Source of the DNA: Hirudinaria manillensis
Taxonomy: Eukaryota > Annelida > Clitellata > Hirudinida > Hirudinidae
Direction of reading: 5' to 3'
Assembly (NCBI GenBank): GCA_034509925.1
Contig: CM067538.1
Span: 5,418,278 to 5,482,277 of the forward strand
Length of the DNA: 64,000 nt
The notes beneath the pieces were generated by a model. It saw only the letters and a program-made list of their open reading frames with translations, did no database searches and was not told the DNA's origin. A program made the translations under genes and the position numbers. Below are positions 28,940-56,732 of this stretch, piece by piece. Each line of letters begins with the position of its first letter. Position 1 is the first letter of the stretch.

Positions 28940-29335
28940 TCGTAATTAAATGAATTTCAAATCCTCAAAGGACATAATAAGCTTTCTGAAAAATGTTATC
29001 GAGTGAAAAAAAAGGTTCTAATAGTTCTTTTTAAAGTACTTCCAAACTTGGTTCAAACCAAGCTGTGAGATACGAAATTTAGCAAGTCAACAAATTGTTT
29101 TACACGAGCGATTATAGAATTCACGCTTAAATTATATTGTAATTTAATTTTTTTAAGAATATTTTTGGCCATGTTTTGTGGTTCTTCAACAGAACTAGCA
29201 AAAGTATGCGAGGATATCACTCGTGCGTGCACTAATGCTTGTAAATTTCTCTAATGATGGTTGCCACCCATCATTGAAGCCAAATATATTTTTATTTTAT
29301 ATTTTTATTACGAAATTTGTCGAATAATTCGGGTT

Positions 29336-31031
29336 CATTGAGATTTAAAATCTATTATTATATCTTTTTATGAATGATTTTCTTCAACAATTTATAAGGA
29401 TTAAATTCCTTTTTAAATTTTTTCACTCCCCAGTCTGACCTTGAAATCTCTAACATAGGCGAATGATTTGAGATTTTTTAAGTCAACGATTACGTAACGC
29501 ATATATTTCGACTTCAAATTTAAAAAAAAAACACATTAAAAAACATCAATTTTCAAACAAACTTAAAACGATTATATTTAATAAAGTTTGAATATTGCAT
29601 ATTCTCAAATTATTTCCGTTACTATAATATATCAAGTGTCGGAAATGTAAAAAGTTCAGTCCTTATAAAAACTGTAATTACGAGTTATTATAATATTACA
29701 TTATTATGGGTCGCTATAATATTAAATTTACTATTATTAAAGTTATTGAAGTAATGTACAGAAGACAAGACAATGGGGCGTGGTTTGAAATTGCGAACCT
29801 CACGAACGTTTTGGTCAATCGCCAGTCTAAGTTCCAATGTGTTCACCCATTGCTGTAAATTTTTAACAACTCTTCCAAAATGAAAATAAACGAAAAATAA
29901 CCAAACAATTAATATATGTAACTAAAGTCAGTAAATCAATATAATATAATAAACAATTTCCAATCAATGGTTTGAACAATCAAAACGTAATTTCAACAGA
30001 AACAACGAATGTAATTTAATATGTTGTAATATCAGTTAAACACATAACAAAATAATCTCTGAAAGTAGAGAACCGCCTTTAGAAAAGACTAATAGGCCAG
30101 ACTAATAGACTTGAGACCCTCTGACCCTTTCCTGATTTTTTTTCATTTGCATAATTAAGCATCTCTAAAAGTCGAACTCGATGCTGCATAAGATTTCCAT
30201 AACCGAACTCTTAAATCCCTTATTTAAAAATAAAATGCTGCCCCAGATTTTTGCAAATATTTTAGCATAACATCGGCTCTCTTACGACTAAAGGCGACAT
30301 CTTTTTCTCTTTGAACGACCAATGGTGGAGTATTCGATGCTGGAATAATCAGATCTTTTGGAAAGCAGTTCTGGGACAACAAGTTACAAGACTTGCCAAC
30401 TAGGAAAGGAGCTTTGTAGACTTTGGAAATAATGTAACATATGAATATGGGTATTTACTTATGTTTACTTATATTAGAGTTTTATTCAAGCTATTTATAC
30501 ATAGCTATATAAATATATTAGCTATATAACATATTATATAGCTATATAACTATTATACATTACATTTATATATTTGTGTATAGATTTAACATACACAATT
30601 TCTTTTAAATATCAAAGTGCTGGAAATATTTTCCGCAAATCATTGAAAAACTTCTTTTCCTCTTCGTTCTGTTCAAATAAGAAACTATGAAAATTATAGT
30701 CGATTAAAATTATTTCAAATGTTCGAGTTAAATATTATGCAGTATTTATTATAATCTGATCAGAATTGACGAAGTAATTCAAAAATGCTATTCTGAAATC
30801 CCTGTTCTAAATCTTAAAATAACAGTTTCAAAATCAATTTACAACAATCCTGTGCCAGTCATAAATTCAGTCAACACCATCTGATATAACTTGACACCGT
30901 CGTCATCCGTGACATATCACCGGTCAACCATTAAGTCGTATTAACTGAAACTTCATCCTAATGGAGTGGAGTAAATATTGCAAATGCATGATGGGAATTC
31001 GTGACAGAATTCGCGACATGACTGAAAGGTT
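29336..31031. other. non-coding segment present only in duplication unit A
   Basis: AT-rich sequence missing from unit B. It includes imperfect repeats of tagctatat around 30490-30560. No exon seen. Confidence 0.45.
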
Positions 31032-31060
31032 TCATCGTCGTCTGGGTCTCTTCGCGCCTC

Positions 31061-31068
31061 TATAAAAG
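31061..31068 (+). promoter_or_regulatory. TATA box of neuropeptide gene A
   Basis: TATAAAAG in the context cgcctctataaaaggg, followed about 30 bp downstream by GC-rich sequence that is nearly identical in copy B. The first coding exon starts about 720 bp downstream, so a long 5'UTR or a 5'UTR intron is expected. Confidence 0.7.
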
Positions 31069-31786
31069 GGACGCGTTTCCAGCGACTGGACAAGGGGGAA
31101 ATCTTCCGTTACTCTGGCGTTCTTTTCCTGGACGGACGACTCAAAGTCTCAAAGTCTTTACTGAAGTCAGAAGTGCAAAGCATAGGTTGGCTTTAGATTC
31201 TAACTCTTCAACGTTTTGTGTTTAATAATATTTATATTAATAATAATATTTTATTAATAATATAAATAAACTTAAATAGACCTTAGATCCTTCATTTCCC
31301 ACACTTTTGTTTTTTAGTAATATTTTTAATATAAATAGACTTTTTTTAATTTAAAAAGATTCTTAGATCTTAAATCTTAAACAGTTTGTGTGTAATAATA
31401 TTTTTAATAGTATTAATTATAATATAAATAGACTGCAGATTCCTGTATATATGTGTGTGAGTGGTGTCATTTTTAATGTAAATAACATTTGAAAGTATTT
31501 TATACTAAAATAATAATAATAGCGTTATTGTGTCCGACAAGTTATTGAATCCAAGGTTGCTATCATAATTACTAATGTTATTGTTATTTTTTATTTTAAA
31601 ATGTAGAAAATTTATTTACTATTTTCACCTTTTATATAGCATAAAATATTAATATTATTATTTTCACTTTTTATGTATTTACCATTTATTATATAAAATT
31701 ACTATAACTTTTAAAAATGAAAATAATAATAATAATAGCAATAATAATAATAATTCATCGAAGGTGAATTCTGTGGAAGCCAAGAA

Positions 31787-34700
31787 ATGCATTCTATCCT
31801 TCAACTCGTGGTAGTGGCTGTGACTGTCAGCATATTGGCAGAATCCTCTCCAATTTCTTTTGATCCTGCCTTCAGCGACGGTAATAATAATAATACATCC
31901 ATTTTAAAATTATTTTCAAAATTAGTTAGAAAATTAATTAATTAATTTTAATCTTTTTTAATAACGAAATTATAGCCTATATGTTTAAAAGATATATTAT
32001 AATTAAAAATGTTGTTATATGAAAATGGTATTCAGAATTAATCAAAAAGTCCATATTTTCGGGTTAAATGAATTAGAAATGCTCTGGTTTATTACAATAA
32101 TAATTTTCTCGTGCAATAAAATTAACTATTTAACTTAACTATTATAATTGCAATATTTACGTATTGTGTTTGCCTTTAAATTTTAACTTTATAGGATTAT
32201 ATTATTAAACTGATATTACTTTTTCCAATTCATCAGTTTAGTGAGATCGATTAAATATTACTTATAATGATTATTACAATTATTTTGGTATTGCTTATGC
32301 AATTACAGAGCAATTTATTGTCGTATTTACTCAGGTATTAATAAATATTTATTTATATTACTAATTTCTGATATATTAGTATTAGTATTAAAATTCATCA
32401 CACATTTTGTTGACATCTGTTCAGGAAGCAGTCAAATAAATAATATTTTTTAAAATGCAACGGAGATGTAATTATTTATTTATTTATTTATTTAAAACAG
32501 TGATATTTCAAAGTAATTCAGAATTTAATTTTAAATTGAAAACTTGAATTTATTACTCTGTGTTGACTGTAAGACAAACAATGTAAGAGTGTAATTTCCT
32601 GCCGAGCCACGATCCAACCACATTAAATTGTGGTTTTTAACATCTTTTTTTCTTTCTTAATATCCTCACGTGGAGTTTGTCAACTGCTTGAAAAACTCGA
32701 AAATGAAAATAAAAATTAATAATGAAATTCAAATTCAAATTCTCCTAACCACCGTCCAAGTGCTATTGAATTTCAAAGGACGATATGAATATTTCATGTT
32801 GATAATCGCCAATATGGCTTGATTACGCTTAGTAAATTATACACTTAATTATAACTATATATATTATTAAATTATATGAGCGAAAATGCGTTGTATTTAT
32901 TTTGATATATTATATCGTATATTATCATATACATGGATTTAAAATGTCATGCTGGTTTTTTTTATTAAAATGTTTAATAAGATAATGCAATAAATATTGT
33001 TTATTTTTGAACTATTTATGATTTATTCCATCCGGGATTATTATATTCGTTGTTATTTTTAATTATCTGATGTATACATGAAATAAAAATATATACCATA
33101 TTAAGTTCTTTGTTACTAAAATCGTATATGAAATATTATGAATATGTTAAGTGTTGTTGTTGGCGTCGTTGTTGTTGTTGTTGTTGCTTCACTGTTTCAC
33201 TTGTTTTGACCTCTGGTATGTTGTTTATGGATTTTATAGCAGACCGTCTGCTTCAAAATGCTTAAAATTTATTTAAGTCTTTGGGAAGACCGATAGAATC
33301 ATTAGCTAATCAATTGGTGAACAAACAAATATATTAAAAATAAAATTTGTGAAATTACGTAGTAATAAATCTAATAAACAAATAAATAAATAAATAAATC
33401 TGAAAAATAAAATGTTATTGTTCGATTAGTTTCGATGGACCATTTTTAAAGATTTATAAATTTAATTTAATAAAATTATTAATAATAAATCAGTAAATCG
33501 ATTCAATAATATATTGTAATAACCCGGGGTCCTCAAACTAATTATAGAAGGGCAGGTTTATTGAAAGTTGTCAGATGGCTTGGAAGATGCACGATGCTTC
33601 AAAAGTCTAAGTCTTGAAATCTGCTGTTCTCTAATTCTCGCTCTACTTTCCGATACAAATCCATTTGTCGAGGTGCATAACCAAAGAGTCTGAATAGCAA
33701 CAATTAATTAATTCTCAAATTATATTGCCACTAAATTTAATTAATTATTAAATTAATTAATCGGCAATATAATTTTAATTATTATTCAATTTATTGGATC
33801 TAGGGATCCAACAATATAATGACGGACATTGATTGAGCTGCACTCCTCTTAGTGGTCATAATTAAATATTATTAATATATCATATATTAAAATATAAATT
33901 GAAATTGTTTTATGCAATTGATTATTTATTCTTTTTATTCTCGACTTATTATTCATTAAATTTAAATTCATACGCCACTCAGACATCATTCTTAGGATAA
34001 TATTATTATGCAAATTTTATTCCAAAATTATTTTATATTGTATTCATGTATTATAATTATAAATATTTATATATTTAATTAATAATATCATAATAGTTTC
34101 AGAATGCATTTTATTATTATTTAAATAATATAATATGTATGTTATATTGTAATACTATTATTATATATGTGTTATTATTACATTAGCTATCTACAGTCTC
34201 ATATTAACAAATCATAAGCCATTAATTAAGCCAAAATAAAATACGAAATCCGAGCTGACACGATGCTTTGAACGATGAAAGGCCAACAAAGAGTTATATA
34301 AACGTGTTACAATTTCCATGCAAATGAGAAGTGGAAAGGACATGACGTTATTCAACTCGGAATTCCCAGCGCGTCTCCGGGGTTTCAACTCCGGCCGAGA
34401 ACTTAATCCATTTGAGTATAAAGCACGATTAAATGCTCCATCTGATCAAGCTCTGAGAAGGAATTTTTATTTTTCTGAATTCAACAAGTCTTTTCGAAAT
34501 AAGTTGTTTTTCAAACATAATTCATAACGAAGTATAGAAGAAAAAAGACAAAACGATACTTAAATCTTTCGTCTCAAAAATTAAAAAAAAACCGATGATG
34601 AAAAAGATGATCCCCTTCTTGATGGAAAGACCCTGAATTCGTACAAGTTCCAAGGGCCGGTTGATCTCCGACGTTTTTCCATTGATCTCTTCCATTATTG

Positions 34701-37700
34701 GAAACCTGACGAGTGATTCCGTCGACAGCTCTTAATCCCGCGCATTGATCTGACCTTTTATCGGCTTTTATCTCGGCCGAGCAGGGCGCGAAAGGTCCCA
34801 GACAAGTTCATAAAGTCATATTCATTCATTCATTCATTCTTTTATTTTTCAGCTCTGTTCCAGCCATGAAATGATTTCGAAAACGTGCAACAAAATGAAA
34901 ATTCAATGGTCACGTCACGCTTGGGAAAACTTTCTGACATTTCAAATGATGAACAAGCGATTCTTTTATCGTTCCGTTCGCTTGTTATTTTGATTATCTT
35001 CAGTCAAAGTTGTTGTCACCATGACAACATAACAAACGTTTTATTGGGAGCTGCTGAAAGAGCATACTTTTGACTAATGAGTGGCGACACCACAGAAGTT
35101 CAAATGTCCTTTTGCTCCCTTTCAGCAAAACTGTTCTCACTGATGCTGTTGTCACTTCCTGTTCGCATGTTTCTGAATCCAGGAATCAAGGATGAATTCA
35201 ATAGTCTTCAGTCAGTCATTGACCTACCTTGAAGGCTATTCTCGCGACTATCGATTTGTTCATCAACTCTAACCATAAATTCCACACTTAGATTTCAGTT
35301 TTATTTTATCTTTTTCATTATCTCATATAATAAAAGCAAAATGTGTACACGTTTAACCCACACCTTGTAAATTCATCGTCATCAGGATAAATCATCGCTA
35401 TCGTCGTCGTCATCGCTACCACCATGCCATCAATAGCTTTATGGCATTATGTTGATTTCAATCAGAGTCTTGAATCGCTGTAAAAAAAAGTAGCAGACGT
35501 GTAGGTAAATGTTCTCATTGGCGCCAAAAAAAGGTCGTCCAAGCAGAATTTATTGCTCGAGAAACACTACGGACAATGTTTATTGGTTCCGCAACAAGTC
35601 GCAAAACTTGCTTTTAAAGTGGCCAGAGTTCTTTTCCACCTCTCTCTTTCTTTCCTTCTATCTCTCTCTCACCCTTCCTCTTCGTCGTCTTCATCATCTT
35701 CTTTTTCACACGCCTCTTGTCCATGGCTTGTCGTTAGTTTTCATTTGAAATCTAATTTTTTTTTCTTTTAACATTTTTGATTGAAGACTTGTGATTATTC
35801 TTCGGCAGGAGGAAGGATCTAATGAAAAACTATGTTAGTGTTCGACATCAATAGTTTCATTCTTAAATAATTCCCTGTTTTTTATTTATTTCAATTTTTG
35901 TAATATTACCCGCCATTACCGTCTTCATTACTTTGTTATATCTCAAAATATTCAAAAATTCCCAGAAATCAAATGATAGGCACATGCATTTTTTTAACCG
36001 TGCCTCCCTCTCTCGACCAGCTGACAAAATGAAAAAGTAACTTGTGGAGTATATGGAGTGTGGCTTTCATATCCGATGGAAGAAGGAATGGAGTTTCGTT
36101 CATTTCCCACGTCACCTTCGGCGCAATACATCTTATAAAAAAAATAATAATAATAAATAGCAGATTGGGTATTTGTAAAAATAACGCATTGTGAATATCG
36201 CTAAATAATAAATACGTATAGAATTATTACCGAATTTGTATTATTAAATTTACGTAATACATTTTAACGGCTTTTGTAATTTAAAAATTTCCTTAATTTA
36301 TTTATTCGTAACGACAAAACTTTATTAAGCCAAATTTTGCAGCCATTACAAGATTAAAGTTTTAATTCATCCAACCGCGTTGCATATCAACCTTAATATT
36401 TCCAGAGAACTTGAAATTAGCAGAAAAAATAAATAAACATTGACGACACTGTTCATGACACAGTGACATTTGCACGTCGAGCTAGTGACTTGCAGAGCCG
36501 GCTTTGACCGTTGTTGTCGCTGTCATGGCTATGCAACTAACACTCCTTTCCAGGAAGGAAGAAGCTCCGAGAGACGTCCGATGTCGATCAGTTCCGCCGC
36601 ATCCGCCCGTTGTTTTTTTTCCCGATTGTTATTCCGTTTTTCTGTTCTTGTTCTTTTTTCGTCGGTTGTAACTGGAGCGACTCGGAAGAGATGGAGAGGA
36701 AAGAACATCACTTACGATGTTTTACTTACCACGTCCGGTCATGAATAATGAACGAGCTGGCAAAACCGGTGACTCAGAACGCGGCGTTCTTAAAAGATAA
36801 TATAAATTCAAGTTGATCAATTTTTCCCAAAGGCTCCAATAATTATTATTAGTTTTATTATTATTATTACATCACTAAGTATATTAACTTTATATATATT
36901 ATAGTGTATCACTAAGGTACAATTACCTATTGCATTTTATTAAAATCACAGTACTGTATTAAATTGAACATCATTACCATAATGTGGATCTTTGTAACAC
37001 AATCATCCCATCTTAGTTCTTTGCTATCTGGTTTACATGTCTTAATTTTTTTTCCTGGACCGAACCTAATGGATTGAAGTATTTTAGACGTGCATATAAA
37101 TCAGACCAGCACCCTGATGTCTGAAGGAGATGCAGGTAATGCACTCAAGATGGCTCCCATGTCAAAGAGATTTAAGAGACAGCAGAGAGCAGAGACCAGC
37201 TTGCATGAATCTCAATTAGTACAATCATTTACATATCTCCCTTGACATGCCAAAAATTTTGTATTAAACACTCGAGATGGAGAGCTATCCATTTTCAGTT
37301 TGGAAATCAGTTTTATTATTTTGAATTTACAAACATTCAAATTTATTATTATTAAACTTATTATTATGCGACGTAGGCTTTAAAGACAAGATTAAAACCC
37401 TGTCAGAGACCAACAGGAGGTCGGAGACCGGGGTTGATTGTCAATTCCAGGTCTAATTATCGTCACCTTAAGCTGACGAGTCTTGAATTATGTAAAAAAA
37501 AAGAAGCGATTGCTCATTCGATTAGTCCCCGAGCGATGCTTTCCATGAATTTTAGACGCCTTCCCAGCAGGAAAAGTTTGTGACGGACAATAATTTTATA
37601 AATTGCCTGACAGATCGTCCTTGCATTCAGAATTGGTGCCCCTAGGTCCCAATTCAAAATTTCATTAATATTTAGCAGGGCAAATATAAACTCTTTAATT

Positions 37701-38135
37701 TGTTAAATGACGAATTTCCCCCTCCTCCAAAATCTCATGCCATATGATAATTGCTTCTTAAAAAATGATATTGCCTTTTGAATTATTGTAGTTAAATATT
37801 AAATGCATTTAATAATTTATATATTAAATATTGATTTGATAATTTTTAAAGCTTAATTTATAAACTTAATGAGTTTAAAAAAAATGAATCTATAAAACTT
37901 TGAAATGCTTTCAGAAGACATATCCTCTCAAGGCTACCAGAGATCTTACAGGGATGCCTTTGATGTAGTATCAAGATCATTGTATGACGACCAAGAACCG
38001 ATCGACCCCAAGGTGCCAAGCTTCTACAAAAGAAGCAGCGGACTCAAATACATCGGTCTCGGCAAAAGGGCACAGAGCGGACAGAAGAAGAATTCAGGAA
38101 TGAAGTACATAGGCCTGGGAAAGAGGGACTACTAG
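31787..38135 (+). CDS. KYIGL-amide neuropeptide precursor, copy A (two predicted peptides)
   Basis: Exon 1 is 31787-31880 and exon 2 is 37915-38135, joined in phase (G at the end of exon 1, AA at the start of exon 2) to 104 residues. Residues 1-20 are a signal peptide (hydrophobic LQLVVVAVTVSILA, then ESS). An acidic spacer follows. Then come two related units, each closed by glycine and a dibasic site: SSGLKYIGL-GKR preceded by KR, and NSGMKYIGL-GKR preceded by KK. The precursor ends in DY. Standard processing would give SSGLKYIGL-amide and NSGMKYIGL-amide. I do not know this peptide from a named family; the ending Y-I-G-L-amide faintly recalls the allatostatin-A ending Y-x-F-G-L-amide, but the phenylalanine is missing and I make no assignment. 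The 6-kb intron is mostly simple AT-rich DNA. A TATA box lies at 31061. Confidence 0.85.
31881..37914 (+). other. intron of neuropeptide gene A
   Basis: Six kilobases without a supportable exon. It contains AT repeats (33830-34200), a gttgtt repeat (33150-33187), and a GC-balanced part (34280-35260 and 35400-35760) that may hold regulatory DNA. The patch 36476-36625 is shared with the intron of copy B and reads open in one frame, but intronic position and lack of family signal argue against coding. Confidence 0.5.
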
Positions 38136-38422
38136 TTTGGATCGGATGAACTAACGAAAACTCCTCCACAGAGAAACAAGAAAAGAAGAAATTATCAAAT
38201 ACTTTGCCTAACAAAATCATTGAACATTAGTTTCCATAGTTACGACTCAATTGCTCAATGATTATTCGTAATATTTGGTATCATTAAAAAATTAAATGAA
38301 TTGCTATGCGCTTGTCAAGACTAATTTATTTATAACGAGAAAACAATACTTTACTTTTTCTTAACAAAGAGTAATAATAAATATTAGTAACAGCAGTAAC
38401 CATTAAACAGGTCATTTGGGAT

Positions 38423-39583
38423 TCACAACAAAAATTGTTGCCTACTGTCACACATGAGTGACATCAGTTGGAATGAGACCTGGAGTGTAAAGTATAAAAT
38501 ATTGTTGTGAAATGTAAAAGTGACTTTTTGAAAAAGCAAAACTATTTCACTAATGACTTCCGTTTAAAGAACACGTAAATAATTAATTAAAACCAATCTG
38601 CTGTTAAAATAATCATTTTTAACAATAAAACAGAAACAAAAACAAACAAACCTGATGGACTTGGAAAGCACAAACGTGCTTCTTCCACGAACCAAACAAC
38701 GTCAGGGAAGTGTGGAGTTTAATGTAATCTCTGATTAAAAAAAAACCATTGCTGGTTTCATCAGGTAACGAAATAAATTATGAAGAAATAAAATTAATAA
38801 ACTTTAATTTATTATTAATAATAACCATTAAAACATAACTAATATTCGTTAAAGTGAACAAACTTTTTGGGAACTCTGACGATCGCATGGTTACCTTCGG
38901 GCATGAATTTTAAAATGTCAACATTGATAGCCTTCCCAACCTGCAGAGGGCAATAAAATCATTTAAAAAAATAATCACATAAAAAATTAATGCATGAATC
39001 TGGTATGAATGAGTAATGCATATCTAATGAATTATACATTAAGCCTAATAATATAAATATTTCATAATTTAAATCCTAAGCATAAATCAATGCAATGTGT
39101 GGTCATCAGTTATTTTGCCATGACATCGTAATAAGTTACATTGTTTGTTTAGTGCAAGCCAGCAACACCCTTTGGTGTTTATGATAAATATAGCTTCAGA
39201 GGAAATAATTAAATATTTATATTTAAATAATTAATGAAAACAGCATAAAAAGTAAATAATTTCAAAATTAAGTGAAAACAGCATTAAGCCAAAACAACAA
39301 CAATAACAATAAGGAGACAAGCTATCAGAAGCTAAGAGACCTCTCCGAATAATTGTTCCAAGGCATTCAAAATGACAACTTTAAAGAGAACTGCCGTGAG
39401 GTCACTTTCTGCTTCCAAGTCAGTGCATATTCTTTTTGCCTCTAAATCTTCATCCTCGTCATCCTCGCGCCCTCTTTTGTTAGACTTTGAAACTTCTGAT
39501 TCGCTTTCGCCATTCAAGTCAGGGGCTGAAACGGCCTCATTTACGAGAATGTCAAGAATGTCTTGTTCCTGTTCTTCGGCCAT
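38423..39583 (-). CDS. chimeric gene: TAF11 N-terminus fused to Rpp14-type RNase P subunit, duplication unit A
   Basis: Exons on the minus strand: 39583-39341, 38940-38864, 38730-38652 and 38479-38423; phases agree and give 151 residues with no internal stop. Residues 1-60 are identical to the acidic N-terminus of TAF11 found at 58865, ending TDLEAES. Residue 61 onward is the C-terminal two thirds of an Rpp14 homologue: DLTAVLFKVVILNALEQLFGE, then VGKAINVDIL, HAIVRVP, KLHTSLTLFGSW, VCAFQVHQ and VSFQLMSL. The join falls inside one exon, at about 39403. The fusion keeps the TAF11 start codon and 21 bp of sequence upstream of it. The TAF11 part lacks the histone-fold domain, and the Rpp14 part lacks its first beta strand, so function is unknown. 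It may be a transcribed new gene or a pseudogene; the unbroken frame across four exons favours recent origin or use. Confidence 0.75.
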
Positions 39584-39604
39584 TATTTTTTAAGTCCCAA
39601 AACG
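39404..39604 (-). repeat. 201-bp duplicated copy of the TAF11 5' end (breakpoint filler)
   Basis: Matches 58686-58886 with one visible substitution (near 39585 against 58866) over 201 bp. It lies exactly at the seam between duplication units A and B: unit A Rpp14 sequence ends at 39403 and unit B begins at about 39600-39605. Microhomology of one to a few bases at each end. This is the pattern expected for a templated insertion at a replication-based rearrangement. Confidence 0.85.
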
Positions 39605-40014
39605 TAATAAAATGAATTTCAATTCCTCAAAGGACATAATAAGCTTTCTGAAAAATGTTAACGAGTGAAAAAAAACGGTTCTAATAGTTCTTTTTAAAGT
39701 ACTTCTGAACTTGGTTCAAACCAAGCTATGAGATTCGAAATTTAGCAAGTCAACAAATTGTTTCACACACGCGATTATAAAATTCACGCTTATATTATAT
39801 TGTAATTTAATTATTTTTAAAAATATTTTTGGCTATGTTTTGTGGTTCTTCACTAGCAAAAGTATGCGAGGATATCACTCGTGCGTGCACAATTCTTGTA
39901 AATTTCTCTAATGATGGTTGTCACCCATCATTAAAGCCAAATATATTTTTATTTTATAAATTTATTATGAAATTTGTCGAATAATTCATCGTCGTCTGGG
40001 TCTCTTCGCGCCTC

Positions 40015-40021
40015 TATAAAG
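40015..40021 (+). promoter_or_regulatory. TATA box of neuropeptide gene B, one A shorter than in copy A
   Basis: TATAAAG in cgcctctataaaggg; copy A has TATAAAAG at the same place. The flanking GC-rich promoter is otherwise nearly identical between the copies. Confidence 0.65.
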
Positions 40022-40797
40022 GGACGCGTTTCCAGCGACTGGACAAGTGGGAAATCTTCCGTTACTCTGGCGTTCTTTTCCTGGACGGACGACTCAAAGT
40101 CTCAAAGTCTTTACTGAAGTCAGAAGTGCAAAGCATAGGTTGGCTTTAGATTCTAACTCTTCAACGTTTTGTGTTTAATAATATTTATATTAATAATAAT
40201 ATTTTAATAATATTTAATAATAATATTTTAATAATAATATGTTTAATAATGTAAATAAACTTAAATAGACTTTAGATCCTTAATTTCCCACACTTTTGTT
40301 TTTTTAATAATATTAGATATTAGTTTAAATAAACTTTAGATTCTTAGATCTTAAATGTTACACAGTTTGTGTGTAATAAGTGATAATGTAAATAGATTGC
40401 AGATTCATGTATATATACATATCTTTGTATCATTTTTAATATAAATAACATTTAAAAGTATTTTGTACTGAAATAATAATAATAATAATAGCGTTATTGT
40501 GTCTGACAAGTTGTTGAATCCAAGGTTGCTATCATAATTACTGATATTATTGCCATTTTTTATTTTAAATGGGAGAACATTTACTCGTTATTATTAGAAT
40601 ATTTATTTATTAGAAAGTTTATTTATTATTTTCGCCTTTTATACAGCATAAAATATTAATATTATTATTTCCACTTTTTATATATTTACCATTTATTATA
40701 TAAAATTACTATAACTTTTAAAAAATGAAAATAATAATAATAATAATAGCAATAATAATAATAATTCATCGAAGGTGAATTCTGTGGAAGCCAAGAA

Positions 40798-40890
40798 ATG
40801 CATTCTATCCTTCAACTCGTGGTAGTGGCTGTGACTGTCAGCATATTGGCAGAATCCTCTCCAATTTCTGTTGATCCTGCCTTCAGCGAA

Positions 40891-40933
<43 letters not shown>

Positions 40934-43900
40934 GCTTTGTCGCTCAGCCGGATTGTTGCTGTGCTGAGAAAACCGAGTAGTTTTGTGCTTAAAACTCAAT
41001 AAATTTTTTTAAAATTTGTTGTAATAAGCATTATTTGTATATCTGATATCTATTTACTCGGCAAGTTTAATTAAGAATATTGCGAGTTCAATGGCCGAAG
41101 GTATTCGGACTCGAAAGGTCGAAAAGTTTGATGTTGAAATTGCTGCTAAATTGGGACTACACCTGTGTGACAAGTGTGGCAAACAAAATGCTGACTCACT
41201 AAAAAGATTGTACGGTTCAACGAGAGTGGAAGAAAATACAGAGGAGATTTTGAATGGCATAAACGACATTCGTTCAGAAGTTTCAAATAAACTGTTCAGT
41301 TGTTGCAAAATTGAAGAAAGTGTAAATGAACAGACAGTCGAAGTAAAAAAAATCATCAGTGAAAGAAAAGAAAGAGAAAACAAATTAAATGAACAAATGA
41401 CGGAATGGAAGACAAGACTAGAGAATATGAGTTCTGAATTCATCGAACTAATCCAAAAAGTTGACAGTCTTGCTGGCAAAACCTCAGAAAAAGAATCCAA
41501 ATTGATTAATGGATTTGAACTCTTGAACAAAAAAGTTGAGAACTTGAAAATTCCTGCAGTTGAGAAAGAAATAAACAAAAGGTGGTCAGATTTGGTTAAA
41601 GAAAATGCTGAAATAAAAGATGATATGAAAACTGTCAAAAAAAACAGCTAATGATGCAAAACAGTCCTGGGACATCAATTCTGACAGAAGCTCAAGAAAA
41701 CTTAGTTATATACAACTTACCAGAAGATGAAAAAGATGCAAAGAACAAAGACAAAGAAATGTTGAACGAACTGGTAATGGGATTTGGTTTGGATTTTGAT
41801 CTCCAGAGAGATGTGTCCCACGTGGCAAGAATGGGTAGAAAAGGCGATGACGTCAAGAGAAGTCGACCACTGATGGTGAAGTTTTATATTTTCACCGTAA
41901 AAAACATGATATTTGAAAGCTGTTTCAAGATTAAAAGGATGGAGAAGTTCAAATCTCTGATTGTGACCCACGACTTGTCCAGAGAAGACAGGGAACAATG
42001 TCGAATGATGATAAAAAAAGGCCAAACAAGAAAAAGAGAAAACTGGAGAGCTTGAAAAATTCAGTTACAAAGTGAGAGGTGAACCAGGATCCTTCCATGT
42101 TGTAACGGTTTGAAGGAAGAGTTTTTTATAATGAAAGAGTTAAAACATGAAATAAATGATAGGACAAATGAAAGAAAGCCTGAGAAAATGACTCCTGTCC
42201 TCCAAACAATCAATTTTGACAAAAGGACGCCGACAACCGAAAATCCAGAAGACAAAGAGGCAGAGTTTCATGGAAGACAGCCAGACGTACCTAACATGAT
42301 CATCAACAGAGAAGACTCTTCAGCTGCCCCAGGTCAAAACAATCAAAGACACAAATGGACCAAGGAGCAGTACAAAGAAGTTATTTGGGCCTATTACTAT
42401 GCAAAAGCTGCAGGCAGTGAAGGAATAACCGTAAGCATCTACAACGTGTGACGCGACAGAAACCCGGAGATTTTTCCGAGCATGAACCCCAACAATTTAA
42501 GCAATCAACGACGTTATATTATCAAAGAAAGAAAACTCACGGAGCTTGAAATCAAAGAAATTGCAGCAGATGTCGCCTTAAAAACTGAAGAAAGTCAACA
42601 TGATGATAGTGCGGGGGTGCTGATGAAACTGCCGGCAATAGAATAGCGAAGCCTCAAACTTTGGCCTTAGCCCATAAAGGATCAGAAAAGCAAGTTACAG
42701 ATGAAGAAGATATAAAAAACATGGAAAGTAAAATTGCTGCAAAAATGATTGAAATAAAAAAAATATAAGCCCGAGGAAATTAAACAAAGTTAAAATTTTA
42801 AAACTCATGACCAAGGAAATAGAACTGGCAAACAAGGCATTGCATAACATCACTAGTAATACTTGCTTGAATCTAACAGAAATCAATGAATTGATTTATG
42901 CCACTGCAGCTGTGATTGCGGGCGAGAGACCAAAGAACGCAAACGATAAACCACGATTTGAGACGCCGAAATGGAAGTCCAGAATACACAAAGTCATTGA
43001 CAAATGCAGAAAAGATCTAGCCACCATAAAACAATATAAAAAAAGGCAAGACTAGCCAAAAAGTTCAAAGCAAGGTGATAGAATTGTGTGACAAGTCAGC
43101 AATGAGCTTGGAAAAAATCGACGAGCTTGAGAACAACATCAAAATGAAACTGCAAGCCAAGGCACAAAGAGTAAGAAGATATAGTAACCGCAGCGCACAA
43201 TTTCAACAAAATAGACTGTTTTGACTTCCCTAATAGCAGAAAGAATTTATGGACATCTCAAAAACAATAACATCTTTCCAGAAGAACAGAAAGGATGCAT
43301 GAAAAAAAGCAGAGGATGTAAAGACCAATGGTTAATAAGTCAGATGGTGGTACAACATGCAATGAAATTTAAGAAAGATTTGAGTATCACATAGATAGAC
43401 TATAAAAAAGCATTTGACAGCGTTCCACACTCTTTGATCCACCAAATTCTAGAAATTTATAAAGTAAATAACATCAACAGAAATTTTCTTCAACAGGTAA
43501 TGGTTACATGGAAAACTAGCATGAATCTGGGAAGGAAGTTGGGAAGGAAAACATAAAAACTTGAAAAATCTCCATCAAAAGAGGAATATTCCAAGGAGAT
43601 TCACTTTCACCATTATTGTTCTGCACGATTTTGATACCACTGTCGAATTCGCTTAGAAAACAACCTAATCCTTCATACCCTGCTTTATTTACACCATGGA
43701 CCATATTGTTTGCGTTGTCCCTTACAACAGCATGTATTTTGCTCAATCCCCAGTCTCTAGTGATGTTTGTCAAAATATCCGCTATGTTCTTTGAGGCATG
43801 TGAGATTTTGAAAGGAATGCATCTCAACACGACAAACTTTCTATCAAAATCCTCGGTTATCCAATGAGCGGTGAAAGAAGCAAAGGAATGCTAACTAGGG

Positions 43901-45976
43901 GACGTCCAAATATCAGAGGTGATTGCAAACGCCCCATCCTTGTTTTTCAGTATTTTTTGTTTAACAACATATTGTACGTTCCGCGAAAGATCAGGAATTA
44001 ATTTCGTCCTGATAGTCTTTTCGGTAGGAACTTTTAATTTTTTGTTTAAATGATGTACGAAATTTAAAAACTGAGCATTTTCCACTTCAGCATAGGCATT
44101 CATACTGGCACACAACCAATAAGTCAACAATCGTTCTCCCAAAATCTGATCGTCATGAGTTGGATCCCAAGGTTTTGAGATAGACAAGAATTCCTGCAGA
44201 GTAGGTTGTGTAGGAATTTCAGGCCTAACTACGATTGTGTGGCTGCTCCCTGCTTCATGTTCCGCCACCCTCTTCTACTTCTCTTCACATTCTTCGGATT
44301 GCGCCTGTTGTGCCAAAGAATATTCTTCCGGGTGTTTTGCTTTCAAGTGACCCCAGAGTGATTTTGTAGAGTAACTCTTACTAGAAGCACCATCAGCTCC
44401 TCGTATAATTTTAGTCTGGCAAAGGTTGCATTGCGCAATTTCTGGAAGAATCGAACTCACCACGTAGTAATTCCACACTGCTGAAGTACTTTTCTTTGCC
44501 ATCGCATAAAAAACTTAAAAACACTGTCACGTCACTAACTCTAACTCAAACCACCATCATTTCGTCCTTATATAGAAATCCTCACACCATATCCATTCAC
44601 CAATAATCTTTCATGGAACTTTCTGGAAAATCCATCAGTCATCCTAGATATTCAATCTCCTCGTAGCTTTTAATTTAAAAAAAAACATTACTGGGTTCCT
44701 CAACAAGATTCAGGTACCTCCCCTCGAAAGGAGCCTGAGAAAGTTTCCTTAACTCGATGGATTTAAATAAACATCATCGGCTGGAACCTGGAATGATGTC
44801 CTTAAAACTATGAGCTTTAAAAAAATTACCGTTTAACTTTCATCACTATTGCGTTCACAAAACAGTAATCAATTAGTATTCATTAAGATTTGATTTTCAT
44901 GAGATTCCATCAACGAATTAATGTTTTTCTAAGTTTTCGCAACGGAGCGTGGAAGAGTTGTCGTTGTGAAATTTTTTTATTACAGGTTTTACAGAATCTC
45001 TCTGACATAATAAGCATACTTATATATTATTTGACGTTTACATGTTTAGAGAATAAAAGCACCGTTAGTAAACGTTATTATAGATGGCCTCCCCAACCCC
45101 GTCAACCAGTCCCGGCTAAAATTGATGCCCCGGTCGATCACTACGAGCTAGTGACTTGCAGAGCCGGCTTTGACCGTTGTTGTCGTTGTCATGGCTACGC
45201 AACTAACACTCCTTTCCAGGAAGGAAGAAGCTCCGAGAGATGTCCGATGTCGATTAGTTCCGCCGCATCCGCCCGTTGTTTTTTTTTCCGATTGTCAGAG
45301 ACCAACAGGAGGTCGGAGATCGGGGGTTGATTGTCAATTCCAGGTCCAATTATCGTCACCTTAAGCTGATGAGTCTTGAATTATGTAAAAAAAAAAGAAG
45401 CGATTGCTCATTCGATGAGTCCCCGAACGATGCTTTCCATAAATTTTAGACGCCTTCCCAGCAGGAAAAGTTTGACGGACAATAATTTTATAAATTGCCT
45501 GACAGATCGTCCTTGCATTCAGAATTGGTGCCTCCTGGGTCCCAATTCAAAATTTCATTAATATTTAGCAGGGCAAATATAAACTCCCTAAATTGTTAAA
45601 TGACAAATTTCCCCCTCCTCCAAAACCTCAAAAACATGCTGTATGATAATTGCTTTTTAAAAATGACCTTGCCTTTTGAATTATTGTAGTTAAATATTAA
45701 ATGCATTTAATAATTTATATATTAAATATTGATTTGATAATTTTTAAAACTTAATTTATAAACTTAATGAGTTTAAAAAAAATGAATCTATAAAACTTTG
45801 AAATGCTTTCAGAAGACATATCCTCTCAAGGCTACAATGTATTTCTCGGGGATCCTTTTGCTGATGAATCAAAGGCATTTGATGAGGAACCGATTGACCA
45901 CAGGTTACCAAGCTTCAATAAAAGAAGCAGCGGACTCAAATACATCGGTCTCGGCAAAAGGGCAGAGAGCGGATAG
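40798..45976 (+). CDS. KYIGL-amide neuropeptide precursor, copy B (truncated to one peptide)
   Basis: Exon 1 is 40798-40891 and exon 2 is 45813-45976, in phase, giving 85 residues. Signal peptide as in copy A. The spacer differs strongly from copy A, although the flanking introns and 3' region are nearly identical. One peptide unit is intact: KR then SSGLKYIGL-GKR. Four residues later the reading frame meets TAG at 45974-45976, where copy A has CAG. The second unit (NSGMKYIGL-GKR) is still present downstream in the same frame, up to a TAG at 46028, with one extra lysine codon. The product would therefore release SSGLKYIGL-amide only. The 4.9-kb intron begins with a long (AAT)n run and contains a decayed LINE and a hAT fragment, which could affect expression. 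Confidence 0.75.
40892..40934. repeat. (AAT)n microsatellite at the 5' splice site of neuropeptide gene B
   Basis: The intron starts gtaataataat... and the AAT run continues for about 40 bp, far longer than the four units at the same place in copy A (31881-31894). Read through, it encodes poly-Asn and leads to a TAG at 40978, so failure to splice would give a signal peptide with an Asn-rich tail. Confidence 0.8.
41091..43665 (+). mobile_element. decayed non-LTR retrotransposon (LINE) in the intron of neuropeptide gene B
   Basis: Plus-strand remains read in order: a coiled-coil segment (41091-41640) beginning with a C-x2-C pair, a nucleic-acid-binding ORF1-like segment (NLPEDEKD..., VARMGRKGDD, 41651-42055), a KWTKEQYKEVIWAYYYAK segment (42340-42610), a PKWKSRIHKVIDKCRKDL segment (42807-43055) and a reverse transcriptase piece with IDYKKAFDSVPHSLI and GIFQGDSLSPLLFC (43200-43660). 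The frame is broken by a one-base slip in a run of A near 41640, by TGA near 42449 and by TAG near 43393. The element stops before the catalytic F-A-D-D box, at the junction with a hAT fragment. Motif order resembles LINEs with a restriction-like endonuclease, but no endonuclease part is present here. Confidence 0.75.
43666..44502 (-). mobile_element. hAT transposase fragment (BED zinc finger, ZBED-like), decayed
   Basis: Minus-strand reading starts at 44502. It begins with a BED finger (W-N-Y-Y, C-x2-C at CNLC, then H-x4-H at HLKAKH), continues with a linker and the typical hAT segment (KTIRTKLIPDLSRNVQYVV, TSDIWTSPS) and ends with VVRDNANNM..., GLGCF. Two in-frame TAG codons, near 44272 and 43891, interrupt it without any frameshift. 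The reading ends at about 43670, where it abuts the LINE. No terminal inverted repeats were identified. Confidence 0.75.
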
Positions 45977-46317
45977 AAGAAGAAGAATTCAGGAATGAAG
46001 TACATAGGCCTGGGAAAGAGGGACTACTAGTTTGGATCGGATGAACGAACGAAAACTCCTCCACAGAGAAACAAGAAAAGAAGAAATTATCAAATACTTT
46101 GCCTAACAAAATCATTGAACATTAGTTTCCATAGTTACGACTCAATTGCTCAATGATTATTCGTAATATTTGGTATCATTAACAAATTAAATGAATTGCT
46201 ATGCGCTTGTCAAGACTAATTTATTTATAACGAGAAAACAATACTTTACTTTTTCTTAACAAAGAGTAATAATAAATATTAGTAACAGCAGTAACCATTA
46301 AAGAGGTCATTTGGGAT

Positions 46318-47322
46318 TCACAACAAAAATTGTTGCCTACTGTCACACATGAGTGACATCAGTTGGAATGAGACCTGGAGTGTAAAATATAAAATATTGT
46401 TGTGAAATGTAAAAGTGACTTTTTGAAAAAGCAAAACTATTTCACTAACGACTTCCGTTTAAAGAACACGTAAATAATTAATTAAAACCAATCTGCTGTT
46501 AAAATAATAATTTTTAACAATAAAACGGAAACAAAAACAAACCTGATGGACATGGAAAGCACAAACGCGCTTCTTCCACGAACCAAACAACGTCAGAGAA
46601 GTGTGGAGTTTAATGTAATCTCTGATTAAAAAAAAACCATTGCTGGTTTCATCAGGTAACGAAATAAATTATGAAGAAATAAAATTAATAAACTTTAATT
46701 TATTATTAATAATAACCATTAAAACATAACTAATATTCGTTAAAGTGAACAAACTTTTTGGGAACTCTGACGATCGCATGGTTACCTTCGGGCATGAATT
46801 TTAAAATGTCAACATTGATAGCCTTCCCAACCTGCAGAGGGCAATAAAATCATTTAAAAAAATAATCACATAAAAAATTAATGCATGAATCTGGTATGAA
46901 TGAGTAATGCATATCTAATGAATTATACATTAAGCCTAATAATATAAATATTTCATAATTTAAATCCTAAGCAGAAATCAATGCAATGTGTGGTCATCAG
47001 TTATTTTGCCATGACATCGTAATAAGTTACATTGTTTGTTTAGTGCAAGCCAGCAACACCCTTTGGTGTTTATGGTAAATATAGCTTCAGAGAAAATAAT
47101 TAAATATTTATATTTAAATAATTAATGAAAACAGCATAAAAAGTAAATAATTTCAAAATTAAGTGAAAACAACATTAAGCCAAAACAACAACAATAACAA
47201 CAAGGAGACAAGCTATCAGAAGCTAAGAGACCTCTCCAAATAATTGTTCCAAGGCATTCAAAATCACGACTTTAAAGAGAACTGCCGTGAGGTCTTCATT
47301 TCCCGATTCATCTTTGAATGTT
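46318..47322 (-). CDS. RPP14: Rpp14-type ribonuclease P/MRP subunit, 5' exon(s) not found
   Basis: Exons on the minus strand: 47322-47232, 46831-46755, 46621-46543 and 46374-46318, joining in phase and ending in TGA. The reading shows TFKDESGNEDL, then FKVVILNALEQLFGE-VGKAINVDIL, HAIVRVP, DYIKLHTSLTLFGSW, RVCAFHVHQ and VSFQLMSLMCDSRQQFLL. This matches Rpp14 over its whole C-terminal two thirds, including the FGEVG and SLTLFG signatures and the CAF-V-Q-VS end. Rpp14 (Pop5-like fold) is a protein subunit of nuclear RNase P and RNase MRP, which process tRNA and rRNA precursors. The exon at 47322 begins mid-codon, so at least one more exon with the start lies between 47323 and the CNK start at 48192; I could not identify it. 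The gene is head to head with CNK, so the two may share a promoter. Confidence 0.82.
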
Positions 47323-48191
47323 CTGAAGGTTCACAAAACATTTTAATAAAACAACAGTAATATTATCTTAGTGTTAAAATGAAGTTAAAGTAGAATAAAA
47401 TATCCTTCAATAACGAATAAAATGTCAATAACAATGATTCACTTCGTGTTAATGTTTGGAAATGATTGTTTTTGTGTAAATATGCTCTACTTAAGAGGTA
47501 GACTGATGGCACTTCAATGAACGTTAATAGTTAATAAATTAGTGCAATCCCAAAATTAGATTGGTGGAAGTTGATTCACTATTTCAGGTTAAAAGAAATG
47601 AAAAATTGCATTTGGTCGCTTCAATCTTACCAAATACGAAATTAACGAAAGGTGAAGTCAGTTTAATAACCTTGAAATCAAACTAGAATCAAATATTATA
47701 TATTGAATATTAAATAGCCGGTTAATAGTTCTCTATTAACTATCTAGATTTACAGTATGTAGAATGATAAAAGTGAGCAAGCAAATACTATGGCCATCAC
47801 TTAGTAACCACGTTCCTCATATCATAATTCAAGTTATAACTTACAGAGAAATTTTCAAATATGCATATCTGGCTTTGAACACTTCTTTTTGATCGAATGA
47901 CATATTTCACGATTTAATAATAACCGCAACATCGCTCGTAAATAAACAATGATAAATAAACCAATTCATAAAATACGTAAATCTTTTCTTCATAATAAAA
48001 GTGTAAAATAATAAAAATAATCAAATGTAAATTAATAAAAATATAAAATAATTTAAAATTTAAAAATTAAAATCTTGCTATATTTTGACTAAAGGTGTGG
48101 TTTGCTACTGGATTCCACAGGTGCCTAACATAGAATGCGTTCTTAGCCTCATTCCGTAGCTGTCAGCCGTAAACAGTTTTTAATTTTATTT
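47323..48191. other. probable shared upstream region of Rpp14 and CNK
   Basis: Under 0.9 kb between divergent genes. It should hold the missing first exon of Rpp14 and the CNK promoter. A more GC-balanced patch at 48090-48180 is the best candidate for promoter or 5'UTR sequence; no TATA box is seen. Confidence 0.4.
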
Positions 48192-54100: not shown

Positions 54101-56732
54101 GGAATGGTTATATTTCTCTCTAAGTTGTGAGGAACAGCCATATCCTAAAGTACACTTAATCTCACTCCCCTAACTTTTCAACTCGTTCTGATTATTTCAC
54201 AAAAATTATGAGTTTTTTTCTTTTATTCTTTTTTGATCACCAGCAGCTCAAATATTCTTGTTTGGCATCCTTGGGAGGACATTGTTTGGAAATTTAATTT
54301 TTTAAATTTTAGAAAGTGCCTCTGAATCAATTTCTGTCGGCTCAACGAAGCAGCCAGAAGAAGTTGAGAAGTCAGAAATTCAAGAAGCATCAGAAAGTAA
54401 TAGTTTTATATTAAACAATTATTATCTATTATTATGTTTATCTGGTTATTTTTTTGATTTAATTGTTCATCCCCAGCTGACTAAAAGCATATCATTAATT
54501 TAATGTCATAATTGCTCCGGGAATTTCCTCAAATCTGTTAAAGCTGATCAAAGTAATTAGAATCCTGATAACCTGATGAGCGGATTTAACGAGGGTTTTT
54601 TTTACCTGCAAAAATTTTTTAACTCATCATAAACTTTTTATTTTATATTTTTTTAAACTTTTTTAAAAATCGTTTTTAAACTTGTGGCAGGCATGGAAAA
54701 GTGGTACAAAGAGATCAGAAGGGCAGGTGTGAGCATCGACGGAAGGAACGACTTGCAGAGGAGATCAGCCATCCTGACTGCCAGCAAGTCTCTGAAGGGG
54801 TCAAAGAACATGAGTGTACTCAAACTTTTGTCTCTCAACAGGATGCTTGAGGTCAGCATGTTAATTAATTTATCATTAATAATTTATTATAATTTATAAT
54901 TATTTTATTATTAGTAATTAATGAATCATAATGACCTCAAATACACATAACCACATTTCACTGTTTATATCCTGTATAGATTATTATTATACACATTTTT
55001 CCTGCTTCTTCTCGGTCTTACAGCCGGTGATGAATGAATGCTGAGCACTACCAGTGCTCTCAGCGATTCATCCAAGTACTTTCCGAAGAATGTGGGCAGT
55101 GCCCAGTAAGGAGATCTTCTGAATCTCCGAAGTCTTTGGTCATCCTGGTATCAACTCTACATACTTTGTAAAGTCTTTTCTTAGCGTTCCGAGCGCTCCT
55201 ACAATTACCGGAACGACTTTAGACTTCACATTCCACATCCGGTTGATTTCAATCTCCAGGTCCTTGTATTTGCCAATTTTTTCAGCTTCTTTGAGCGTGA
55301 TGTTCTTATCATCCAGTACTGAAACATCGATTAGCATGCAAGACTTGGATCTCCTGTCATGGATGACAACATCAGGTCTGTTGGCCAATATTTTCCTGTC
55401 CATGATAATTGTGTAGTCCCATAAGACTATCTAGACATGGTGCAATCCTTTACATTTGTCACACTTTGGGGTGTGCTCATACCATTTCTTTGGAACATCA
55501 CATCCTAGCTCACGGCATACAACCCAGTGGATGTAACTGGCCACCTTATTATGTCGGTGCAAATATTCAGTTGCTGCTAACACAGTGCAATCTGACGTTA
55601 TGTGGCTTATCGTTTCTTGGGCCTTGCCACAGATCCGGCAATTGCCATCCATCTGCTGCTTCAATATCATTCGTTGATGCGAACATGTATTTAGTGTATG
55701 GTCTTGAGCTGCCATGATCAAACTCTCAGTTTTGCCTTTGAGCCCAGCGCTTCTTAACCAAGCATAGCTTGCTTCTTTGTCCACCCAATTCTTTTCTAAG
55801 TTACAAAAGAATTGTCCATGCCTGGGCTTTTTCCTCAATTCATTTATTCTCTCTTTCTCCATGTTGTCCTTTAACATTTCTTTCACGGATGTTTGACCTG
55901 TGGGCAAAGACAGATATTTATTTTTAATTGTCTTTGCTTCTTTGAGGAGAGAATATTTTGCCTTCCCTGCTTCATGCTATTTGACAAGACTACAGAGCCT
56001 GTCTTTGCCCTGTTCAATATAATCACTCAAGTTAACCATGGAGCAGCTGTACGCAGACATCAGTTGGATAAGTCCCCGGCCTCCATTGCATCTTTTAATG
56101 TAGAGTCGACTAACATCTCCTTTTGGGTGATGAAGTCCATGCATCGTCAGCAACTTTCGAGTCTTGCGATCCATTTTGTCGATTTCAGACTTTCTCCAAT
56201 CAATTATGCCAAAGCTATAGGTGAGCACTGGAATTTCCAAAGCATTAATTGCCGATAACTTGTTCTTGGAATTTAACTCTGATTTGAGAATGAGACGCAC
56301 CCTACGGTAATACTCTCTGGCTATTTTCTCCTTCATTTCAGGATGTTTAATGTTACCATTCTCATCGATTCCAAGATATTTGTACGCCTCCTCTATTATT
56401 ATTATTAAAATATTACTGCACTTAGATCTTGAATTTATGAAGGCAATACTCAAATGAAAATTAGTCTAAATAAAATTAGCTTCCTAATAATTTAGACATT
56501 TAAGATAATTGAGCATGATTATGGTTATGATTTGTTGTCAACAATCAGCCTATAATCAGAGGCGATAGATGAATTGTTTACTTTTGCCGACTTAATTGAT
56601 CAGGACAAAACCCGGAAACTGGAGGCCATCGAGAACTTCCTCGATCGAAGTCCGATCACTTCTGAAGCCTTGAATCAGTTCCAAGTTCAGAATCCTCTAT
56701 GTATCCACAATGTACCTAATGACCTTGAGTAG
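48192..56732 (+). CDS. cnk: CNK, connector enhancer of kinase suppressor of Ras
   Basis: Twenty exons join in phase to 811 residues: 48192-48258, 48333-48507, 48560-48681, 48750-48843, 49013-49130, 49394-49510, 49944-50003, 50235-50303, 50882-51063, 51309-51741, 51879-51928, 52037-52046, 52218-52254, 52804-52946, 53112-53182, 53385-53453, 53920-54126, 54317-54396, 54691-54851 and 56562-56732. Domains in order: SAM (LWSVEKVLSWIKGLGES..., about 11-80), CRIC (about 82-231, with SMLSWIN and STDPLASQPASVE), PDZ (about 232-305, with DEIIQINDQTV, GWNVKLL and VIFTLKKRP), an Asn/Ser/Pro-rich linker with poly-Asn, PH (about 515-617, with GWLWMKQDG, AYWVTL, SFKVWNDYESFGFAS and DMLKWMNKM), an acidic Asp-rich stretch, and a C-terminal helical region ending in NVPNDLE. 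CNK is a membrane-linked scaffold that couples Ras to Raf/KSR and MAPK signalling. Less certain joins: donor after 50003 (GTCGGT), after 52946, and the 54126/54317 pair. Confidence 0.9.
50043..50200. repeat. 79-bp tandem duplication in a CNK intron
   Basis: Two adjacent copies of about 79 bp, each starting gaatttataatcga and containing ttttggatcctaaaaac, with a few differences near their ends. The intron lies between the two first PDZ exons. Confidence 0.85.
52351..52498. repeat. minisatellite-like repeat in a CNK intron
   Basis: Four diverged copies of a 35-50 bp unit built from acttataataataataataat followed by t/g-poor aaaataaa sequence. It is located just before the PH-domain exon. Confidence 0.75.
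54985..56420 (-). mobile_element. LINE 3' half with restriction-like endonuclease, in the last CNK intron
   Basis: Minus strand, reading from about 56400: EEAYKYLGIDENGN, MKEKIAREYYRRVRLILKSEL, LTYSFGIIDWRKSEI, TRKLLTMHGLHHPKGDVSRLYIKR and NGGRGLIQL; then a zinc-knuckle-like CRICGKAQETISHITSDC; then the PD-(D/E)XK type endonuclease region with ILANRPDVVIHD, SCMLIDVSVLDD and KYKDLEIEI, and LLGTAHILRKVLG near the end. This is the C-terminal half of the Pol protein of LINEs of the R2/R4/NeSL-like kind, which use a restriction-like endonuclease. Three in-frame stops (TAG near 55975, TAG near 55431, TGA near 55137) break it, yet no frameshift is needed over 1.3 kb. A short (TAA)n run near 54980 is the probable 3' tail. 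The 5' half, including the reverse transcriptase core, is absent. Confidence 0.82.

Follow-up and report, generated by a model that had tools for sequence, protein, structure and literature searches.

A chimeric TAF11-Rpp14 open reading frame at a tandem-duplication junction in Hirudinaria manillensis: a candidate young gene or an unconstrained by-product

In the Hirudinaria manillensis genome (assembly GCA_034509925.1, contig CM067538.1), a stretch of 64,000 nucleotides, referred to here as the window, contains an open reading frame in which the start of TAF11 is joined to the body of Rpp14. The locus raises the question of whether such a frame represents a newly born gene or the by-product of a DNA accident. 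The chimeric frame lies on the minus strand, from 39583 to 38423, and in-silico splicing yields four exons coding for 151 amino acids with no premature stops; the introns, of 400, 133 and 172 bp, are bounded by GT...AG. TAF11 codons 1-60 are followed in frame by the last 91 codons of Rpp14 (residues 30-120), and parts of two parent genes share one reading frame, as in a chimeric gene arising from duplication. The components are the following:

39584-39604, minus strand: 21 bp from immediately 5′ of the TAF11 ATG, with one mismatch and an in-frame TAA 9 bp before the ATG
39404-39583, minus strand: TAF11 codons 1-60 (acidic tail), with the ATG at 39583; identical to 58686-58865
39341-39403, minus strand: Rpp14 part of chimera exon 1 (whole exon 39583-39341), equivalent to codon 30 onward in genuine exon 2 and continuing the TAF11 reading frame
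38864-38940, minus strand: chimera exon 2 (Rpp14), from splicing
38652-38730, minus strand: chimera exon 3 (Rpp14), from splicing
38423-38479, minus strand: chimera exon 4 (Rpp14), including the stop codon, from splicing

The block 39403-39604 corresponds to 58685-58886, at the TAF11 start, with one mismatch in 202 bp; the 180 coding bp have no differences from the local TAF11, the sole mismatch lying 2 bp 5′ of the ATG. The first-pass annotation of this DNA had described both the copying of 60 TAF11 codons with 21 bp upstream and an in-frame join inside one exon, leading to four open exons and 151 residues, and these descriptions are confirmed. Its further statement, that the splice sites are identical to those of the genuine Rpp14, holds for the GT/AG dinucleotides, which are the same, as are the lengths of the last three exons, but not for the flanks, which differ slightly: the last intron measures 172 bp in the chimera and 168 bp in the genuine gene, with one change upstream of the acceptor. 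Since the near-identical blocks are long, chance similarity is excluded as their source.

The two parent genes are found further along the window:

46318-47903, minus strand: genuine Rpp14, five exons (47903-47845, 47322-47232, 46831-46755, 46621-46543 and 46374-46318), 120 amino acids, from splicing and from profile and genome searches
57923-58865, minus strand: genuine TAF11, four exon matches (58865-58623, 58446-58375, 58303-58163 and 58066-57923), 176 amino acids, from genome search; the coordinates are match ends, not exact splice sites, and the protein was spliced by eye

Both parents look intact. The genuine Rpp14 had previously been taken to start at 47322, but an additional first exon is present at 47903-47845, and the chimera therefore lacks 29 residues (1-29), which presumably contain the first strand of the fold. 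The gene identities assigned from the letters alone were borne out by profile searches: genuine Rpp14 matches PF20976 (3.2e-14), PF01900 (2.2e-8) and human p14 (6ahr chain H, 6.5e-18), while the TAF11 parent matches PF04719 (4.8e-35; TAFII28 region at residues 79-157) and human TAF11. The chimera itself exceeds the curated Pfam cut-offs for PF01900 (30.9 vs 23 bits) and for PF20976, Pop8 (45.9 vs 27.2 bits). Its PF01900 domain is incomplete, the match beginning at profile position 20 of 104, compared with 2 in the genuine protein; similarly, the PF20976 match begins at position 10 of 74, compared with 2 in genuine Rpp14. No PF04719 match, that is, no TAFII28 (histone-fold) region, was found in the chimera up to E 1. 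The TAF11 tail was also considered as a substitute strand, phmmer having aligned chimera residues 51-60 (TAF11) to residues 23-32 of human Rpp14; shuffles gave no convincing support, scoring at least as high as observed in 1701/3000, 550/3000, 2700/3000 and 130/3000 cases (one test of four near 0.04), and the claim was therefore dropped.

Rpp14 is a subunit common to RNase P and MRP (PMC12819141, PMC12390755) and has its place in a Pop5-Rpp14-(Rpp30)2-Rpp40 module (PMC8509007). Deprived of its N-terminal part, the chimera might bind some RNase P/MRP partners or none. As regards the RNA component, the assembly contains four RNase P RNA genes, three of which are 96.6-98.3% alike, two of those lying 1.2 kb apart on contig C6; all four matches carry TATAAAAG shortly 5′ of the start, as read by eye. 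The presence of TATAAAAG before the start sets these genes apart from the insects and crustaceans examined in PMC6797745, in which the RNase P RNA is embedded in introns.

A protein search of the 148-Mb assembly, which scores only its best candidates, listed nine Rpp14 exon matches, all at the genuine locus or in the chimera, and five TAF11 matches, all at the TAF11 locus or in the insert; likewise, the sequence spanning the 39403 join had no second occurrence among the assembly matches listed. On contig C12, a 57-bp match of 84% to an intron within the Rpp14 part was set aside as a probable chance hit.

How the two parts came together is indicated by the surroundings of the chimera. The window was compared with itself, retaining hits longer than 60 bp and above 78% identity, and with the whole assembly (148.4 Mb, 23 contigs). 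Five relevant self-match blocks were obtained: four form an imperfect tandem duplication of one gene region (28941-39403 / 39603-47294), absent from the first-pass annotation, and the fifth is the 202-bp TAF11 insert, located at the junction, where the chimera sits. The left tandem copy ends within an Rpp14 exon, so that 1.3 kb of almost unchanged Rpp14 3′ sequence precedes the TAF11 insert, and all pieces retain their orientation. The elements of the duplication and its joins are:

36478-36629: duplication block equal to 45144-45295, from self-comparison
37401-39403: copy of 45293-47294, comprising the end of the neuropeptide-like gene and Rpp14 exons, from self-comparison
39403: join 1, Rpp14 to TAF11, with 1 bp common to both templates
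39603-39604: join 2, TAF11 upstream DNA to duplicated upstream DNA, with 2 bp (CG) common to both templates
39603-39987: copy of 28941-29330 (20 of 383 positions differ); it opens the second tandem copy and is the nearest candidate promoter DNA for the chimera
39985-40906, plus strand: copy of 31031-31895, in head-to-head orientation to the chimera; contains the TATA-like sequence (40015-40021), leader and signal-like exon (40798-40891) of neuropeptide-like copy 2

Tandem copies, an insert from elsewhere and microhomology at the joins are all present, as in a tandem duplication with a templated insertion. The overlaps of 1 and 2 bp suit either template switching or polymerase-theta joining, and are too short to be significant by themselves. 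The 1.7 kb between the two upstream blocks of copy 1 (29331-31030) are missing from copy 2 and match only themselves in the assembly.

The duplicated region contains two tandem, two-exon neuropeptide-like precursors (31787-31880 with 37915-38135, and 40798-40891 with about 45813-46030), having a signal-like start followed by KR-SSGLKYIGL-GKR and NSGMKYIGL-GKR; a string search of the papers covered gave no match for four peptide strings. In copy 2 the first peptide is followed by an in-frame TAG; between the copies the second exon differs at 30/213 positions and the adjoining intron at 18/512. For the 1000 bp of 37401-38400, in this neuropeptide region, the matches listed across the assembly are the window copies only. 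The copy 2 intron (40925-45143) consists almost entirely of repeats matching many contigs and has no match in copy 1. A 300-bp repeat at about 33505-33820 has at least 39 near-full matches elsewhere, at 94-100% identity and often paired about 1.5-1.9 kb apart, with no second window copy among the matches listed. On the minus strand, at 55431-55976, an ORF with a weak match to a zinc-binding reverse-transcriptase profile (2.3e-4, below the Pfam cut-off) is probably a retroelement remnant.

These features bear on whether the arrangement exists in the animal at all, as the layout might be an assembly or library artefact in which two alleles were set in tandem and joined via a chimeric molecule. 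Microhomology joins arise in amplified libraries too, and nuclear contig C9 has at least 2871 bp in common with the mitochondrial contig C23, at 99.7% identity; this reflects either a recent insertion into the nuclear genome or a fault of assembly, and is reason to check the assembly. (COX1 on C23, a contig of 15,581 bp, is open under the invertebrate code, the sole code tried.) However, assemblers join across long overlaps rather than 1-2 bp; a neuropeptide exon differing at 30/213 positions, with an in-frame stop and a repeat-filled intron in copy 2, would be unusual for alleles, and the flank 29331-31030 matches itself only. An artefact is thus considered very unlikely.

The relative age of the pieces was estimated from their divergence. 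In the inner region (38135-39403), noncoding DNA differs at 12/989 positions (1.2%; introns 9/701, the rest 3/288) and the exons at 6/276, the exons being no less diverged (P 0.25). Just beyond the insert, the outer block (28941-29330 vs 39603-39987) differs at 20/383 (5.2%; Fisher P 6e-5 against inner noncoding DNA); the left neuropeptide intron, with 18/512, is also more diverged (P 0.005 against inner noncoding DNA), and 36478-36629 differs from its copy at 5/152. The TAF11 insert, with 1/202, is comparable to the Rpp14 noncoding DNA (P 0.71) and distinct from the outer block (P 0.002). Because of the contrast between 12/989 inside and 20/383 just beyond the insert, the chimera region looks younger than the tandem duplication, or homogenised. 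The two-age picture is not clean, since the promoter/leader stretch of the outer copy has only 2/195 differences, as close as the inner part, and outer divergence is patchy. A change-point analysis of 37401-39403 placed a step at 38082 (48/673 to the left, 18/1317 to the right), much of which is driven by the fast neuropeptide exon (30/213).

The simplest account of these figures would be an older duplication, followed by a younger patch that introduced the TAF11 start along with the Rpp14 part. A similar pattern could result from gene conversion following one event, or from copies deriving from two different alleles. According to the conversion scenario, the tandem duplication and its templated TAF11 insert would stem from one event, as old as the outer parts; conversion by the genuine gene would later have homogenised the Rpp14 part, and either selection or conversion would have preserved the TAF11 part. 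The layout is indeed that of one tandem duplication with an insert at its junction, and the 100 bp adjoining the join (39304-39403) contain four differences, as though conversion had stopped short of the edge. The TAF11 part, however, is difficult to accommodate: the probability of zero changes in its 180 bp, which is 0.25 for a neutral copy of young age, falls to 0.02 at 3.4% divergence and to 0.0004 at 6.8%, and the outer blocks measured 3.3-5.2%, in or near this range. Since an unselected old TAF11 copy would hardly have stayed unchanged, a second conversion or strong selection would be required, and we regard a single event followed by conversion as improbable.

Selection on the chimera was addressed by comparing its Rpp14 part with the genuine gene, from which it differs by four silent changes and two replacements (R to H and H to Q). 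The dN/dS comparison proposed by the first-pass annotation gave a low ratio, 0.13 (dN 0.0093, dS 0.073), on six differences. Among simulated runs with six differences, at most two replacements occurred with a frequency of 0.03-0.04 when both copies were neutral, 0.12-0.14 when only the chimera was neutral and 0.83-0.90 when both were constrained; two rates were used, the chimera-neutral figure deriving from 331 and 1965 runs and the both-constrained figure from only 12 and 187. A neutral chimera branch is therefore not rejected (P 0.12-0.14). Silent sites are more diverged than noncoding DNA (4/57 vs 12/989, P 0.009), an excess not accounted for by uniform neutral change; of the four silent changes, three are found within 56 bp of the join, and error-prone copying near the join might be their source. 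Unchanged TAF11 codons, together with a body in which four of six changes are silent, would be as expected of a constrained gene; the numbers are too small to decide.

The open frame carries little information. A chimera branch evolving neutrally should have received 0.14 nonsense and 0.17 frameshift hits, the frameshift rate resting on a single 4-bp indel, and about 73% of neutral copies of this age would still be open; for this reason, the open frame is weak evidence of function. What had been announced as a new chimeric gene is chimeric in structure, but the word gene exceeds the evidence, open exons being uninformative at such a rate of neutral survival. Beside a functional gene, the first-pass annotation had named a dominant-negative competitor and a dying by-product, with no preference among the three.

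Transcription would depend on newly acquired DNA. Since only 21 bp of TAF11 upstream DNA were carried along, a promoter, if any, most likely lies in duplicated DNA, between 39604 and the promoter of neuropeptide copy 2 (TATA-like 40015-40021, opposite direction), a stretch that contains four upstream ATGs. In Drosophila yakuba, 24 of 76 chimeras formed by tandem duplication are reported to have raised expression, and the chimeras to occur at lower frequency than whole-gene copies, which was read as mostly harmful effects (Rogers, Shao and Thornton 2017, PMC5460883); by analogy, there is a fair chance that the chimera described here is transcribed and a small chance that it is functional.

A functional young gene would encode a 151-residue nuclear protein that binds some Rpp14 partners (Pop5, Rpp30, Rpp40) and alters or competes with RNase P/MRP. 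Its transcription would start from the upstream DNA common to it and neuropeptide copy 2, and the TAF11 tail would contribute charge and possibly a nuclear signal. The four open exons with intact splice dinucleotides, the unchanged 180 bp of TAF11, the dN/dS of 0.13, the scores above the Rpp14/Pop8 family cut-offs and the raised expression of some D. yakuba chimeras all point in this direction. On the other hand, an equally young neutral copy would usually be open as well, a neutral branch is not rejected by the substitutions, residues 1-29 are gone, just 21 bp of TAF11 upstream DNA are present, and the D. yakuba chimeras are the lower-frequency class, with effects read as mostly harmful; function is accordingly judged unlikely. 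Its more specific form, in which a TAF11-tailed, N-terminally cut Rpp14 is expressed from neuropeptide-shared promoter DNA and modifies, or competes with, RNase P/MRP in a tissue-restricted manner, appears quite unlikely.

The locus is probably best described as a young chimeric open reading frame born at a tandem-duplication junction, most likely an unconstrained by-product that is perhaps transcribed. An older tandem duplication, whose outer parts are now about 3-7% diverged in a patchy manner, would have been followed by a more recent repair or replication accident, in which a DNA end, extended along the 3′ part of the genuine Rpp14, took the TAF11 start, about 11 kb farther along, as its next template before being rejoined to the upstream side of the second copy, with microhomologies of 1 and 2 bp at the joins. 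The product is in frame by luck (one chance in three); it has an ATG and intact splice sites and keeps the 3′ end of Rpp14, with only 21 bp of TAF11 upstream DNA. Any transcript would begin in the DNA common to the head-to-head neuropeptide copy 2 and would encode an acidic tail followed by an Rpp14 without residues 1-29, a protein that would probably fold or assemble poorly.

The locus offers a candidate gene birth at base-pair resolution, with parents, joins and flanks all still in place, and its possible route can be read directly: duplication, template switch, in-frame join and possible promoter capture. If expressed, the chimera would test whether an RNase P/MRP subunit can be tolerated or used when truncated and fitted with the tail of a transcription factor; if not, it would be a good case of an intact open frame being no evidence of a gene.

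Compared with the known families, the chimera shares with Rpp14/Pop8 proteins (PF01900, PF20976; human 6ahr chain H) residues 30-120, which come from three whole exons and part of another among the five, but it lacks residues 1-29 and has the acidic TAF11 tail in their place; its first 60 residues are identical to the local TAF11 (PF04719, a TFIID subunit), whereas the conserved TAFII28 region is absent. Among the papers searched for TAF11, RPP14 and fusion, only an interactome paper was returned, and the TAF11-Rpp14 pair appears new; chimeric genes arising by tandem duplication are a known kind of event, already reported in PMC5460883 and PMC6776367. As regards the junction, PMC8654963 describes tandem duplications in Caenorhabditis elegans helq-1 mutants, with microhomology and, now and then, templated insertions where the copies meet; these were taken there to reflect failed repair intermediates joined by polymerase theta. 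Tandem duplication, minute microhomology and a templated insert recur here; the insert, however, is 202 bp long, comes from about 11 kb beyond the duplicated unit and carries a start codon, and the mechanism is deduced from sequence. As regards the chimera, the 5′ part differs from that of the D. yakuba cases, as presented in PMC5460883, in being a 202-bp insert from outside the duplicated unit, and the case is known from its sequence only; what the two systems have in common is a duplication running across gene boundaries, which attaches the 5′ end of one gene to a 3′ portion of a second and leaves the parents in place.
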